Origin: Planctomycetota bacterium
GTDB taxonomy: Bacteria; Planctomycetota; Planctomycetia; Pirellulales; Pirellulaceae
Length of the DNA stretch: 64,000 nt
Direction of reading: 5' to 3'
Assembly (NCBI GenBank): GCA_027619595.1
Contig: JAQCHP010000004.1
Coordinates: 1 to 64,000, forward strand
Part shown: positions 29,519 through 35,312 of the stretch, piece after piece
Numbering within the stretch: the stretch's first letter is position 1
Layout of the letters: every line of letters begins with the position of its first letter
The notes under the pieces: model-generated
The model's input: the letters and a program-made list of their open reading frames with translations, nothing else
Databases searched by the model: none
Told to the model about the DNA's origin: nothing
Position numbers and translations under genes: made by a program

Positions 29519-30328
29519 TCAGCCACAATCGAAAGCAATCACTTCGCCCGAATGCACCGCATGTGTGCGTTGGTTTGCATCAGCAACCAGCAAGGCACCG
29601 TTTGATTGAGTTCCGCGACATATGCCTATAATGTCCCCAGATGCGGTTTGCAGTCGAACGGATTTACCTCGCAATAAGCAGAAGCGTTCCCATGGCATGC
29701 TTTCCGACCAGCTCGGAAAACATTGACGGTCGAATACGTCGTTCATTCGGTCAAGTATGGCGGAGAGTACATCGCTGGGGTGGCAGGCGTTTGCTGCGAC
29801 AGCCTGTAGAGAAATTGCGCGCGACTGCACTTCTTGGGGGGCATTATCGAAAGAGTTGTTCACATTCACGCCGATTCCGATCACATGCATTCCCTTGGGG
29901 TCGCCGGGTGCTTCGATGAGGATTCCGGCGATCTTTCGTTGCCGAATGTAAACATCGTTCGGCCACTTGAGACGAACAGGATCGCAGCCACAGAGCGGCT
30001 CTAAGGCCTCACACACCACAGCTCCTACGAGCAGCGAGAGCGGCGCACTACCCTCTCTTACTGGTGGCATTTCCCACAGGAGCGAAAACGTTAGCGCCCC
30101 TTGAGTGCTGTACCACATATGGCTGCCGCGTCCTCGACCACTTTCTTGTTCCTCTGCCAGAATCAAATAGGGCCAGGGACACGCCGGAAGAGATTCCGGA
30201 AGAGATTTGAGACGACGCAAACCGTGAGCATTCGTGGAATCCAAACTTGAATGATACTCAGCACCGCTGAGCCACGGATGCGCCAATGATCGCTGCCAAA
30301 CGTCAGGAATTTCCGTCGTGTCGCGCAT
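29519..30328 (-). CDS. birA: Biotin-[acetyl-CoA-carboxylase] ligase, monofunctional
   Basis: A 269-residue ligase that activates biotin with ATP and transfers it to carrier lysines. The biotinyl-AMP loop reads ESGRGRGSHMWYS, followed by LTFSLLW, VRLKWPNDVYIRQRKIAGIL and HVIGIGVNVNN, the full catalytic-core set. There is no N-terminal helix-turn-helix, so it is not the repressor type. The C-terminal SH3-like domain ends GEVIAFDCG. The gene starts 19 bases after the stop of pyruvate carboxylase, which is the obvious substrate and probably shares its transcript. Confidence 0.93.
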   Translation of the reverse strand: MRDTTEIPDVWQRSLAHPWLSGAEYHSSLDSTNAHGLRRLKSLPESLPACPWPYLILAEEQESGRGRGSHMWYSTQGALTFSLLWEMPPVREGSAPLSLLVGAVVCEALEPLCGCDPVRLKWPNDVYIRQRKIAGILIEAPGDPKGMHVIGIGVNVNNSFDNAPQEVQSRAISLQAVAANACHPSDVLSAILDRMNDVFDRQCFPSWSESMPWERFCLLRGKSVRLQTASGDIIGICRGTQSNGALLVADANQRTHAVHSGEVIAFDCG

Positions 30329-30347
30329 AGTTGCTCAGGCAGGCTTC

Positions 30348-33300
30348 CTATTCGAAAACAAGAAGTAGGTCACCGGTCTCGACTTGGCTACCCGGTTTGA
30401 CACACAGTTGAGCAATCTTACCCTCACGCTCGGCATTGATCGTCGTCTCCATTTTCATGGCTTCGATGCTGATCAGCCGTTGCCCTTTTTGGATGGTATC
30501 CCCCACAGCCACACTCACAGTAACGACCATTCCTGGCATCGCGGAACCAACGTGCTTCGGGTTGTCGGCGTCCGCCTTTTCTGCTCGTTCTGCCGTAACT
30601 TCCAGCCCCAGGTCGAGTACTGAGATGTCACGTGGCACACCATTGACCTCAAAGTACACCGTTCGAAAACCATCGGGATGCGGACTCCCCTCAGTAACAT
30701 ATTTGATAATGAGAGTCTTTCCCTTTTCGATATCAACTGCGAATTCTTGACCGGGCGCGAGACCGTAGAAAAATATCGGTGTGGGGATACCGCTCACATC
30801 GCCATACTTTTCTTCGTGCTTCGCAAACTCCTCAAACACTTTGGGGTACAGGAGGTGGGAGGAAAGTTCTTGCCGGCTCGGAGTTCGTCCCAGGATCTTT
30901 TCGAGATCCTGAGTGGCGGCAGCAAAGTCGGCTGGCGGCAACACTTCTCCTGGCCGGCCTAGCATCGGCGCTTGATCGCGCAGGATCCGCTGCTGCACCG
31001 CTTCTGGAAATCCACCGGGTGGCTGTCCCATTCGTCCACCGAGCAAATCGAGCACGGAAGCCGGATACGACAGTTCGCGACTACCATGAACAACTTCGTC
31101 AGGACTGACTTCGTTGGCAACCATGAACAATGCCATGTCACCCACGGCCTTCGATGTGGGTGTCACCTTCACAATGTCACCAAACATCATGTTCACTTGT
31201 GCGTAGACTTGGCACACTTCGTGCCAACGATCGGCCAAGCCCAAAGCGAGCGCTTGTTGATACAGGTTCGTGTACTGACCACCGGGCATTTCATGTTCAT
31301 AGAGATCGGCAGTGGCTGGCAGTACCTGCTGGTCGAATGGCAGGTAAAATCCGCGAACAGCCCGCCAATAGTCGGCCAGCAGGTCAATTTTCCGAGTATC
31401 GAGTTCCGTTTCTCGATCGGAGAAACGGAGAGCCTCCACCAGCGTGTTCAAATTCGGCTGAGAGGTACTTCCGGAAAGGGGTGCCATCGCAGCGTCGGCG
31501 ATATCAAGCCCTTCCTCCGCTGCATTCAAGATGGCAGCGGCCTGAATTCCTGCTGTATCGTGAGTGTGAAAATGAATGGGAATTCCGATCTCTTGCTTGA
31601 GCGTCCTCACGAGCAATCGTGCGGCACTTGGTTTGCACAATCCAGCCATATCCTTAATGGCCAAAATATGCGTTCCCATCCGTTCCAATTTTTTGGCCAA
31701 ATCGACGTAATATTTGAGGCTGTACTTGGCGCGATTGGGATTCAATATGTCGCCGGTATAGCAAATCGCCGCTTCGCAAATGGCGTCGGTCTTCAGGATA
31801 GAATCGATCGAGGCCTGCAAATTGGGCAGCCAATTCAAAGCGTCAAAAACCCGAAATACGTCGATCCCAGCTGCGGCAGCCTCTTGTACGAAACAATCGA
31901 CAACATTGTCAGGATAATTCGTGTATCCCACCGCGCTGGATGCACGCAACAACATCTGAAACAGGATGTTGGGAACGAGCGTCCGCATTTGCTCTAATCG
32001 CAACCAGGGGGACTCCTTGAGGAATCGCATGGAAGTATCAAAGGTCGCTCCGCCCCACATTTCGAGCGAAAACAATTCTGGCGCGCCGTGAGCATAGGCC
32101 GGCGCAATATTCAGCAGGTCATTTGTTCGCAACCGTGTCGCAAATAGCGACTGATGTGCATCGCGAAATGTCGTATCCGTGATTAGGAGCGGCTTGTGTT
32201 CGCGAATCCATTGGCAGAATTTCGTGGGGCCCATTTGCTGGAGCTTCTGGCGATATCCTGTGGGCAATTCATGTTGGCTCCAATCGGGCACAGGCGCGGC
32301 GTTCGAACGCGTGGACTTGGGCAAACCCTTCAACAGAGGATTACCGTTCACGGTAACATCTGCCAGGAAGCTTAAGAGCCGTGTGGCCCGGTCCTGCTGT
32401 GCTCGGAATTCAAAGAGCGACGGGGTCTCGTCAATGAATCGCGTCGTGCATTCACCGTTAAGGAAATCGGGATGGGAGATTAATTTCGCAAGGAACGGCA
32501 GATTTGTCTTCACACCACGAACGCGAAATTCATTCAGGCAGCGATCCATACGGCTTACGGCGTCTTGGAACCGCCGTCCCCACGCCGTGACCTTCACGAG
32601 CAGCGAATCATAAAACGGATTCACGACGGCTCCTGAATAAGCACTCCCTGCGTCCAGTCGAATTCCCATACCGCTCGCAGAACGATAGTGCGCAATCCTC
32701 CCGTAGTCTGGCAGGAACTGATTTTCGGGATCTTCCGTCGTCACGCGACACTGCACGGCGAACCCGTGCGTAGTCACGTCCGTTTGGTTAGAAATCCCAA
32801 TATCAGGATGGGCGAGCGGAACGCCGGCCGCAATCAGGATCTGCGACTTGACGATATCAATCCCCGTGACCTGTTCCGTCACCGTGTGCTCTACCTGAAC
32901 TCGCGGGTTCACTTCAATGAAGTAAAACAGGTTCGTGTCGGTATCTAAAAGGAACTCCACCGTGCCGGCATTTTGGTAGTCGACTGCTTGGCCGATTTTC
33001 AGAGCCGCTTGGCAAAGTTCGTCGCGCCGTTCCGGTGACAATTGCGGCGCCGGAGCAATCTCCACAACTTTCTGATGTCGCCGCTGTACAGAACAGTCGC
33101 GCTCGTAGAGGTGAACCAAATTGCCGTGTTGATCTCCCAGCAACTGCACTTCGATATGTCGAGCGTGGCGGATATATTTTTCGAGGAAGACATCGCCGCT
33201 CCCAAAAGCGGCGGCGGCCTCACGCTGCGCCTGGCGAAAGGAGGCCGAAAAATCTTTGGCCTCGTGGACCACACGCATGCCCCGGCCACCACCACCGTGA

Positions 33301-33794
33301 GCCGCCTTCAAGATTACAGGATACCCAATCTCCGCCGCCTTTTGTTCCCCGATTTGCTCGCTTTCAATCGGTTGTTCCGTGCCCCCCAAGATGGGCACGC
33401 CCGCCTTGAGTGCCAGGGCGCGAGCGGAGGTCTTATTGCCCAGTTTGCGCAAGACATCTGGCTTAGGTCCCACAAAAATAATCCCAGCCGCTGCACAGGC
33501 GTCCGCGAAATCGGGGTTCTCCGAAAGGAAACCGTAACCAGGATGGATGGCATCAATCCGATGTTTCTCGGCCAGTTCAATAATCGAAGGAATATCTAAG
33601 TAGGCCCGAATCGGTTCGCCTGCCGTACCAATTTGATAGGCCTCTTCCGCCTTGAATCGATGAAGGGCAAAACGGTCTTCGTGCGTATAGATGGCGACGT
33701 TGGAAATGCCCAGCTCGTGTGCACTGCGAAATACTCGAATTGCTATTTCGCTTCGATTGGCGACCAATAAGCGGCGAATTGATTTCATGGACAT
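30348..33794 (-). CDS. pyc: Pyruvate carboxylase
   Basis: A 1148-residue single-chain anaplerotic enzyme converting pyruvate, bicarbonate and ATP to oxaloacetate. The N-terminal biotin carboxylase domain (about 5-460) has KAAHGGGGRGMRVV and FIEVNPRVQVEHTVTE. The carboxyltransferase barrel (about 530-800) starts ITDTTFRDAHQSLFATRLRT and carries the catalytic lysine in HILAIKDMAGLCKP and the metal-binding histidines in PIHFHTHDTAG. The C-terminal biotinyl domain has EAMKMETTI with the biotinylated lysine K1114. AAGG six bases before the third codon suggests that the ATG at 33788 could be the true start. It is divergent from the small GTPase gene. Confidence 0.97.
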   Translation of the reverse strand: MSMKSIRRLLVANRSEIAIRVFRSAHELGISNVAIYTHEDRFALHRFKAEEAYQIGTAGEPIRAYLDIPSIIELAEKHRIDAIHPGYGFLSENPDFADACAAAGIIFVGPKPDVLRKLGNKTSARALALKAGVPILGGTEQPIESEQIGEQKAAEIGYPVILKAAHGGGGRGMRVVHEAKDFSASFRQAQREAAAAFGSGDVFLEKYIRHARHIEVQLLGDQHGNLVHLYERDCSVQRRHQKVVEIAPAPQLSPERRDELCQAALKIGQAVDYQNAGTVEFLLDTDTNLFYFIEVNPRVQVEHTVTEQVTGIDIVKSQILIAAGVPLAHPDIGISNQTDVTTHGFAVQCRVTTEDPENQFLPDYGRIAHYRSASGMGIRLDAGSAYSGAVVNPFYDSLLVKVTAWGRRFQDAVSRMDRCLNEFRVRGVKTNLPFLAKLISHPDFLNGECTTRFIDETPSLFEFRAQQDRATRLLSFLADVTVNGNPLLKGLPKSTRSNAAPVPDWSQHELPTGYRQKLQQMGPTKFCQWIREHKPLLITDTTFRDAHQSLFATRLRTNDLLNIAPAYAHGAPELFSLEMWGGATFDTSMRFLKESPWLRLEQMRTLVPNILFQMLLRASSAVGYTNYPDNVVDCFVQEAAAAGIDVFRVFDALNWLPNLQASIDSILKTDAICEAAICYTGDILNPNRAKYSLKYYVDLAKKLERMGTHILAIKDMAGLCKPSAARLLVRTLKQEIGIPIHFHTHDTAGIQAAAILNAAEEGLDIADAAMAPLSGSTSQPNLNTLVEALRFSDRETELDTRKIDLLADYWRAVRGFYLPFDQQVLPATADLYEHEMPGGQYTNLYQQALALGLADRWHEVCQVYAQVNMMFGDIVKVTPTSKAVGDMALFMVANEVSPDEVVHGSRELSYPASVLDLLGGRMGQPPGGFPEAVQQRILRDQAPMLGRPGEVLPPADFAAATQDLEKILGRTPSRQELSSHLLYPKVFEEFAKHEEKYGDVSGIPTPIFFYGLAPGQEFAVDIEKGKTLIIKYVTEGSPHPDGFRTVYFEVNGVPRDISVLDLGLEVTAERAEKADADNPKHVGSAMPGMVVTVSVAVGDTIQKGQRLISIEAMKMETTINAEREGKIAQLCVKPGSQVETGDLLLVFE

Positions 33795-33978: not shown

Positions 33979-34479
33979 ATGCTACAAAAAAAGATGTGTA
34001 TGCTGGGAGCGTTCGCGGTGGGGAAAACCAGCCTCGTTTCCCGCTTCGTCCATAGCGTTTTTAGCGACCGGTACCTCACCACGGTGGGCGTCAAAATCGA
34101 TAAGGAAATCGTTTCGGTAGCCGGGGTCGACGTGATGATGATCCTGTGGGATATACACGGTGAGGACGACCTCCAGGAAGTTCGCCCCTCCTATCTGCGA
34201 GGAATGCATGGTTACTTACTTGTTTCGGATATTACTCGACCGGCGACGCTGCAAACTGCTCTGGAACTTCACGAACGGGCCCGAGGCGTGGTCGGGGATG
34301 TCCCCTGCGCCTTCCTGATCAATAAATGTGACTTAGTGGGTCCCCAAGAGACCGAATTGTTGATCGCTGGGCTCAATTTGCCCATGCGGTGTTTCGGCAC
34401 GAGCGCCCATAACGGAACTCACGTCGAGTCAGCCTTTGAGTTCTTGGCGGAACAGGTGTCCGGGGGATCGACGTCATGA
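33979..34479 (+). CDS. Ras-superfamily small GTPase, prokaryotic Rab-like type
   Basis: A 166-residue single-domain GTPase. All five nucleotide-binding motifs are present: P-loop GAFAVGKTS (G10-S18), switch threonine in YLTTVGVKI, switch II WDIHGEDDL (D58-G61), NKCD (115-118) and TSA (141-143). The residue after DxxG, the catalytic glutamine in Ras and Rab, is glutamate E62 here. There is no lipidation signal, GAP or Roadblock domain. ATG at 33979 opens the first strand directly. The stop overlaps the start of the next gene as ATGA, so the two products are made together. Bacterial relatives (MglA and Rup groups) act in polarity and signalling; the role here is unknown. Confidence 0.88.
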   Translation: MLQKKMCMLGAFAVGKTSLVSRFVHSVFSDRYLTTVGVKIDKEIVSVAGVDVMMILWDIHGEDDLQEVRPSYLRGMHGYLLVSDITRPATLQTALELHERARGVVGDVPCAFLINKCDLVGPQETELLIAGLNLPMRCFGTSAHNGTHVESAFEFLAEQVSGGSTS

Positions 34480-34889
34480 CGTTGCCGGACCGGCTGGTAC
34501 AAAGCCTCCTGAAAAACGCTTTCCACCTGCGGTATCCCGCATTCCTTGCAGTGACCCGCCAAGGCGTGATACGACAAGTTGGCGGCCATTGGAATCACTA
34601 TGCGATCGCCGTGCCTAGAATCATGGCCCCTGCCTGCGTTGAATTGCCATTCTTGGTTGGTTTGATCCCACTTTTGACACCTTTCGAATTCCTGCCGCGA
34701 TTGAATCTGGGACAAGATCGGTTTGTGGACATCTATCTCTTACCGGACGAGGACTTGGATTGGGTCCTCCTGGTAGATGCGGGTGACCAGAGTGCCGTAC
34801 AGCAATCCCAGCAGGCCAGACTCGAATCCCAGCAGCCAACTCGGGCTCGATCCGGTACATCGTCTCTCGCCGGCGCCGGCAATCGTTGA
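34476..34889 (+). CDS. Small sensor-like protein coupled to the GTPase
   Basis: A 137-residue protein translationally coupled to the small GTPase by a four-base overlap. The pattern FLAVTRQGVIRQVGGHWNHY, then PFLVGLIPLLTPFEFLPRLN, DRFVDIYLLPDEDLDWVLLV and DAGDQSAVQQSQQ resembles a PAS-like sensory domain followed by the start of a signalling helix. From memory, similar segments stand in front of cyclase or kinase domains in other bacteria, next to Rab-like GTPases. Here there is no output domain, and the last 30 residues are low-complexity Ser/Arg/Gln. It may sense a ligand and regulate nucleotide exchange or hydrolysis by the GTPase. Family assignment is tentative. Confidence 0.7.
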   Translation: MTLPDRLVQSLLKNAFHLRYPAFLAVTRQGVIRQVGGHWNHYAIAVPRIMAPACVELPFLVGLIPLLTPFEFLPRLNLGQDRFVDIYLLPDEDLDWVLLVDAGDQSAVQQSQQARLESQQPTRARSGTSSLAGAGNR

Positions 34890-34925: not shown

Positions 34926-35312
34926 TTAAGTGGTCGAAGTCGTCGGCGGATTGGCCCGTACAAAATCCTGCAACGCCAGCGCAAGTTCTTCCATGATCCC
35001 TTCGAGATTGGGCTGCAAGCGGCGCACCTTGTCGAGATCGCGCAGCAGCGACGCTTCGTGCATGATGGCAGTAATATGCCAAAGTGGTCCCGCTCGAAAG
35101 TACCCCACAGCCCCACGCAACGAATGTATCGCCCGTTCGACTTCAGGAACGTCTTCCTGCTGTAACGCAATGCGCAGGCTGTCGATCATGCTGCCGTGCG
35201 ACTGCAGGTAAAGCTCTGCCAGATTCCGCAGCAGATGTACGCGGCCGTCCAAGGCACTCAGGGCTGCGGCAACGTCAAACGGAGGGACCGATTCCGAATC
35301 CTGACCCGACAC
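34926..35312 (-). CDS. HPt (histidine phosphotransfer) domain protein
   Basis: A 128-residue stand-alone phosphotransfer protein, helical throughout. The phospho-accepting histidine is H63 in RAIHSLRGAVGYFRA, matching the HPt consensus in which H is followed by x-L-K/R-G. It would relay phosphate between response-regulator receivers, but no kinase or receiver gene is in the window. The start is GTG at 35312, supported by GGAGGA seven bases upstream, which is formed by the last two codons of the preceding CelD-type gene. That arrangement couples its translation to that gene. It is convergent with the GTPase/sensor pair, 36 bases away. Confidence 0.82.
   Translation of the reverse strand: MSGQDSESVPPFDVAAALSALDGRVHLLRNLAELYLQSHGSMIDSLRIALQQEDVPEVERAIHSLRGAVGYFRAGPLWHITAIMHEASLLRDLDKVRRLQPNLEGIMEELALALQDFVRANPPTTSTT

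Follow-up and report, generated by a model that had tools for sequence, protein, structure and literature searches.

A planctomycete genome (Planctomycetota bacterium, family Pirellulaceae, assembly GCA_027619595.1) contains a gene for a Rab-like small GTPase that runs directly into the gene for a 137-residue protein. What does this pair do, and does it work by itself? The window is the whole stretch of DNA analyzed, the first 64,000 nucleotides of contig JAQCHP010000004.1. An earlier note made from its sequence alone described a self-contained two-gene module, a Rab-like GTPase coupled to a PAS-like sensor without an output domain, perhaps its ligand-controlled exchange or activating factor. 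Our analysis indicates that the pair likely serves as the cytoplasmic switch in a Group 1 Rup signaling system whose genes are divided between loci in this genome, with a mechanism that we infer. The features of the window that bear on the question are as follows.

33979–34479, plus strand: putative Rup-type Group 1 (Rab-like) small GTPase, 166 aa (Pfam Ras; 24-member family alignment)
34476–34479, plus strand: ATGA overlap of the GTPase stop and the P0002 start (sequence)
34476–34889, plus strand: P0002, 137 aa, predicted PAS-like N-domain belonging to an output protein of the Rup system, free-standing and without an output domain (BLASTP, kinase profile, AlphaFold2)
34926–35312, minus strand: stand-alone Hpt (phosphotransfer) protein, convergent, 36 bases past the P0002 stop (Pfam Hpt, E 2e-8)
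29519–30328, minus strand: biotin/lipoate ligase-family gene, functional neighbor of pyc

The length of 166 residues and the Ras-family identity of the GTPase were both borne out (Pfam Ras, E 7e-25; 87.9 bits against a cut-off of 21.6). An alternative start lies upstream at 33691, and the starts of the relatives correspond to 33979. The G1 (GAFAVGKTS), G2 (Thr35), G4 (NKCD), and G5 (TSA) motifs are present. G3 reads WDIHGEDD and lacks the catalytic Gln, whose position is occupied by Glu62, so the statement that all five motifs are present needs qualifying at G3. This substitution is a family trait. The column holds Glu in 23 of the 24 aligned members, the window protein included, and Asp in the other. 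All 24 keep the P-loop GKTS, Thr35, Trp57-Asp58, His60-Gly61, Asp63, NK-D, and TS. The solved structures nearest to the 24-member profile are eukaryotic Rabs, with Rab-23 first (E 1e-36). Relatives with 41–56% identity occur in Cyanobacteria, Bacteroidota, Deltaproteobacteria/Polyangia, Acidobacteria, Acidimicrobiales, and Planctomycetota. The genome encodes one GTPase of this family, the one in the window.

The sequence confirms the second gene as a 137-codon frame joined to the GTPase stop by the 4-base ATGA overlap. P0002 has no match in Pfam (E ≤ 1) or NCBIfam, and the Pfam PAS signature is absent from all 15 N-domain members scanned. BLASTP relates it to a free-standing 131-residue ORF of the cyanobacterium Iningainema (E 7e-12) and to the N terminus of a histidine kinase at locus L010 (E 2e-8). 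An AlphaFold2 model built from 15 sequences has PAS topology (pLDDT 79.9). The top Foldseek match to the model is a PAS domain (E 2.3e-3), and no match reaches E ≤ 1e-3. Realignment to the PAS domain of the ThkA kinase (3a0s) gave a Z score of 10.6 and an rmsd of 1.9 over 82 residues, and the best 50 realigned matches are all PAS-type chains as judged by their titles. The fold of P0002 as modeled is PAS-like, and the predicted structure thus supports the earlier description of the partner. Sequence profiles found no solved structure for the N-domain. A Roadblock fold was also considered for this domain and rejected. Weaker Foldseek matches to LAMTOR and Roadblock proteins were seen, the best 50 realigned matches contain PAS-type chains only (an absence that excludes nothing), and a profile comparison with Robl_LC7 was negative. 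A search of the same genome for a P0002 paralogue gave nothing beyond an E 0.11 match with an internal stop, and none of seven candidates on viral contigs was confirmed. P0002 does stand alone here, but it is not an output-less protein by nature, because its relatives are the N termini of histidine kinases or cyclases. The overlap had been taken to imply coupled, equal production. A 4-base overlap is found in 3 of the 18 GTPase/N-domain gene pairs measured, and the remaining pairs are spaced by −1 to +14 bases. The overlap is real and incidental, and equal production is a bare possibility.

A system with these components has been described. According to the portion of Wuichet and Sogaard-Andersen (2014; PMC4316618) used here, a Group 1 Rup neighborhood consists of a coiled-coil protein, a protein with a domain of unassigned type called Unc (to which a membrane helix and OmpA are often added), a GTPase without the G3 Gln, and finally an output protein. 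The conserved N-terminal region of the output protein contains an invariant Gln that those authors linked to a catalytic Gln supplied in trans. By the same account, experimental characterization was at that time lacking for every Rup protein. We recognized no later experimental Rup work among titles and abstracts in PMC, a search that does not extend to preprints outside it. The window pair resembles Group 1 Rup as set out in that portion of PMC4316618 in its Ras-type G1–G5, its lack of the G3 Gln, the presence of all four component types in the genome, and the homology of P0002 to the N-terminal region of output proteins. By this architecture and these motifs, we provisionally assign the pair to Group 1 Rup. 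For Group 1 the same portion lists Bacteroidetes, Chloroflexi, Cyanobacteria, and gamma-Proteobacteria, and Planctomycetota is absent from that list.

The earlier note had proposed conserved adjacency as the property to survey. A search with the GTPase alone in a species-level collection (a single genome for each of 84,980 species, according to the database description) found 25 loci in six phyla by their titles. An N-domain homologue lies immediately downstream of the GTPase in 22 of these 25, which bears out the adjacency. The exceptions are L014, with a weak match in a divergent gene, L022, with none, and L027, where the contig stops inside the GTPase. Matches to the coiled-coil and Unc-OmpA proteins are found at all 25 loci; genes were mapped with profiles built largely from these same loci, and the counts are a description rather than an independent test. 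In most of the 22, the N-domain makes up the opening ~130 residues of a histidine kinase of ~505–530 residues. Iningainema (L006) has a free 131-residue N-domain ORF with, directly after it, a 371-residue ORF with the remaining kinase. In the acidobacterial locus L012, the coiled-coil and Unc-OmpA genes are on the opposite strand, convergent with the GTPase and kinase. Judged from these gene orders, the pairing of GTPase and N-domain is more than chance.

The distribution within the phylum was examined in samples of 392 genomes. The Unc-OmpA protein is present in 18 and the N-domain in 9, all of which fall within the 18 (hypergeometric 9e-14, assuming identical samples and ignoring relatedness). 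The two lie within a few kilobases on one contig in 8 of the 9 genomes, and the exception is the genome of the window. At the 17 other Planctomycetota Unc loci, the GTPase is present in 16 and the N-domain is directly downstream of it in 8. In 7 of the 17, the output protein has a second sensory segment alone, so the N-domain is frequent and not universal. Within the same family, 4 of 241 genomes have the Unc-OmpA protein. Genomes G049 and G051 carry the coiled-coil, Unc-OmpA, and GTPase genes in one operon, with a hybrid kinase upstream in G049. G131 has a similar operon plus a second Unc-OmpA copy by itself; one of its two copies (L049, L050) has no GTPase on its contig, and the other lacks the OmpA end. 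No N-domain follows the GTPase in G049, G051, or G131, and two of these contigs end within 200 bases.

The Unc-OmpA profile identified a single location in the genome of the window, on contig C120 (E 5e-146). Three components of the system lie there on one strand, in the order kinase, coiled-coil, Unc-OmpA, and no GTPase of the family accompanies them.

C120 7214–5487, same strand as the C120 coiled-coil and Unc-OmpA genes: hybrid kinase, 575 aa, HisKA, HATPase, and receiver domains (Pfam, kinase profile)
C120 (L038) 5431–5030, minus strand: coiled-coil gene with an in-frame stop (sequence)
C120 5003–2823, same strand as the C120 kinase and coiled-coil genes: Unc-OmpA protein, 726 aa, hydrophobic stretch near residue 309 (Unc-OmpA profile)

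The kinase and Unc-OmpA frames are open throughout. The OmpA domain scores 14.2 bits, under the Pfam cut-off of 27.2. The kinase has a receiver and no Hpt domain. A profile of the whole kinase has 19 matches in the genome. The window protein fills profile positions 3–132, the C120 kinase fills 140–502, and the other 17 start at position 253 or later. The pieces on C120 are thus complementary to those in the window, which indicates that the operon and the kinase were split and that the GTPase was kept with the N-domain. The GTPase pair is inside contig C250 (72,474 bases) and the remaining genes are inside C120 (36,463 bases), each with unrelated flanks; barring an assembly error, the loci are therefore separate. 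The in-frame stop in the coiled-coil gene suggests that the system may be decaying, or again that the assembly is wrong. The module is not self-contained, as had been thought, but part of a four-component system whose other components are on another contig of the same genome. It differs from the described Group 1 Rup arrangement in its two distant loci, its divided kinase, and its free N-domain, as well as in an Ala aligned with the Gln position of the N-domain and an interrupted coiled-coil gene.

The Unc domain was modeled from residues 1–273 of the L007 protein using 24 sequences. The whole model has a pLDDT of 60, and ten-residue blocks within residues 153–273 range from 56 to 88. The predicted core of this segment is beta-beta-alpha-beta-beta-beta-alpha with a helix before it. 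Its structural matches include Fuzzy of the CPLANE complex with Rab23 (9rs9; Z 12.6), Asgard Roadblock3 (Z 11.8), and MglB (Z 11.2). Foldseek returned 21 chains at E ≤ 1e-3, mostly of the TRAPP, MglB, Ragulator, and Roadblock type, including Asgard Roadblock. The model suggests a Roadblock/longin-like fold at the end of the Unc domain, similar to those of MglB, Ragulator, TRAPP, and Fuzzy. This is a claim about the fold of a predicted model, because sequence profiles give no link to Robl_LC7. Pfam Robl_LC7 is found in 0 of 17 Unc members, comparison of the Unc profile with a profile of 28 planctomycete Robl_LC7 sequences gave no alignment (hhalign probability 0.6%), and no solved structure was retrieved by sequence profile. 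The earlier statement that the pair has no MglB/Roadblock partner stands for Pfam Robl_LC7 (PF03259), which has no match in the genome. It does not stand for the fold, given the predicted Unc structure.

The observations that a mechanism must accommodate are the homologies, the gene arrangement, the complementary split of the kinase, and the predicted folds. The Unc protein on C120 would be anchored to peptidoglycan by its C terminus, with its Roadblock/longin-like domain facing the cytoplasm as a platform. Together, the platform and the coiled-coil protein would bind the Rab-like GTPase and set its nucleotide state according to the condition of the envelope. The GTPase would then engage the PAS-like N-domain, here the separate P0002, and through the N-domain the state of the GTPase would reach the remaining part of the output protein. 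In this genome that part would be the C120 hybrid kinase, acting in trans, because that kinase lacks its own N-domain. The physical contacts, the direction of signaling, and the assignment of GAP, GEF, or effector roles in this scheme are what we infer. The main hint that the N-domain is functionally tied to the GTPase is that a cut before the kinase leaves it beside the GTPase both here and in Iningainema. The system probably ties the cell envelope to a signaling enzyme. A phosphorelay may continue to an Hpt protein, and the one beside P0002 is a possible relay partner of the hybrid kinase, as a candidate picked from sequence. The genome has eight Hpt matches, this one included. As a conserved part of the system it finds no support: 44 of 100 family-sample genomes, its own among them, have matches, and those in the other genomes are ≤33% identical among the matches listed. 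The family sample has no close orthologue, so its position beside the pair may be a coincidence.

Several known systems share parts of this design. The actinobacterial conservon (CvnA kinase, CvnB Roadblock, CvnC, and CvnD GTPase, as outlined in the same portion of PMC4316618) likewise has a kinase, a small GTPase, and a Roadblock-like partner, the last being a predicted fold in our case. According to that portion, the conservon uses an MglA-type GTPase and CvnB, homologous to MglB, is a free protein, whereas here the Roadblock/longin-like domain would be within a membrane-OmpA protein and, unlike CvnB, has no sequence link to Robl_LC7. MglA-MglB of Myxococcus and Thermus is similar in pairing a small GTPase with a Roadblock-fold partner (again predicted here), but this genome has no Robl_LC7 match and its GTPase has eukaryotic Rabs as its nearest solved relatives. 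Rab23 with Fuzzy-Inturned (CPLANE), Ragulator, and TRAPP combine a Rab-like GTPase with the longin/Roadblock platforms that are the best matches to the Unc domain; this likeness is one of the fold of a predicted model, not of function. We tentatively entertain a wider idea, in which Group 1 Rup systems would be the bacterial equivalent of the Ragulator, TRAPP, and CPLANE platforms. A membrane-spanning protein anchored to peptidoglycan would use its Roadblock/longin-like domain to load a Rab-like GTPase, and the dedicated reader of that GTPase would be a PAS domain. In this genome the reader would be a free subunit, connecting GTPase and phosphorelay kinase in trans. What is new here is a split variant of the described Rup system and a fold-level proposal for the Unc domain. 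The predicted fold would give that domain a testable role and connects a bacterial envelope protein to the platforms by which eukaryotes regulate Rab and Rag GTPases. With the cut in this Rup system falling at the PAS/kinase joint and the domain staying with the GTPase, the two proteins stand out as a small pair suited to expression and to assays of binding and GTPase activity.

The idea that P0002 is itself the activating or exchange factor (GAP or GEF) of the GTPase, the kinase aside, was raised in the earlier note and follows the 2014 trans-Gln idea. The adjacency retained here and in Iningainema despite the severed kinase is in its favor, as is the absence of the G3 Gln across the GTPase family. 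The N-domain alignment has a Gln near the C-terminal helix in 13 of 15 members, and equating this column with the published invariant Gln rests on our own alignment. The two exceptions are L012, with Asn, and P0002, with Ala. A Gln is located one position earlier in P0002, within a QQSQQ run, so an alignment error or register shift is possible there. As aligned, the trans-Gln idea is not supported for this genome. The N-domain cannot be a universal GAP either, because the output protein lacks it at 7 of the 17 other Planctomycetota loci though the GTPase is present. PAS domains are not known to act as GAPs. We regard this role for P0002 as unlikely. An independent carbon-status switch linked to pyc, also raised earlier, is highly improbable. 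Its sole support is the divergent position of the GTPase beside pyc, and among the relatives' loci with ORFs read, none has pyc next to the GTPase. The surroundings of pyc are accounted for without the GTPase, because a biotin/lipoate ligase-family gene comes after the pyruvate carboxylase gene (together 29519–33794, minus strand), and the two make a sensible functional pair.

How the pair and the C120 genes came to be apart is a separate matter. In the Unc tree, C120 groups with genomes of the same family (support 94/98), so it is not foreign to the lineage. The GTPase tree gives the window protein no supported place and a long branch (1.31 compared to a median of 0.4). L106 was omitted before the trees were built, being the same locus as L010. 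The trees therefore do not show that the pair and the C120 genes descended together, and the pair may have been acquired separately from another lineage, with loss of the native GTPase of the C120 operon. The GTPase has its highest identity, 58%, with that of L010/L106, a locus from Planctomycetota but not from the family, which has the N-domain, and the family operons in G049, G051, and G131 show no N-domain beside the GTPase. Against this, the nearest GTPase by tree path is that of G131, a member of the same family, the GC content of the pair (about 0.55–0.57) matches its surroundings, and the segment missing from the C120 kinase is exactly what P0002 supplies. Separate acquisition strikes us as somewhat improbable; the simplest account is that an inherited operon was rearranged. 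The pair could also be a functionless relic of a broken operon, to which the interrupted coiled-coil gene, the long GTPase branch, and drifted motifs in the C-terminal helix and G5 of P0002 and the GTPase, respectively, would point. Both window frames are intact, the P-loop, G2 Thr, and the G4 and G5 cores are kept, and the C120 kinase and Unc-OmpA frames are fully open, all of which make decay a distinctly unlikely explanation.

The relatives' loci also show variety in the components that surround the GTPase. Outputs among 10 proteins scanned include kinases, a GGDEF protein (L118), and class III cyclases (L107, L014). The class III adenylate/guanylate cyclases are fused to the Rup N-domain (L107, 10168–11220; L014, 1428–2867, with a weak N-domain match), an output type absent from those named in the portion of PMC4316618 used here. 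Locus L114 in genome G291 has two Rup-type GTPases ~4 kb apart, each beside a protein with the second sensory segment, and a single coiled-coil/Unc-OmpA set in the same stretch.
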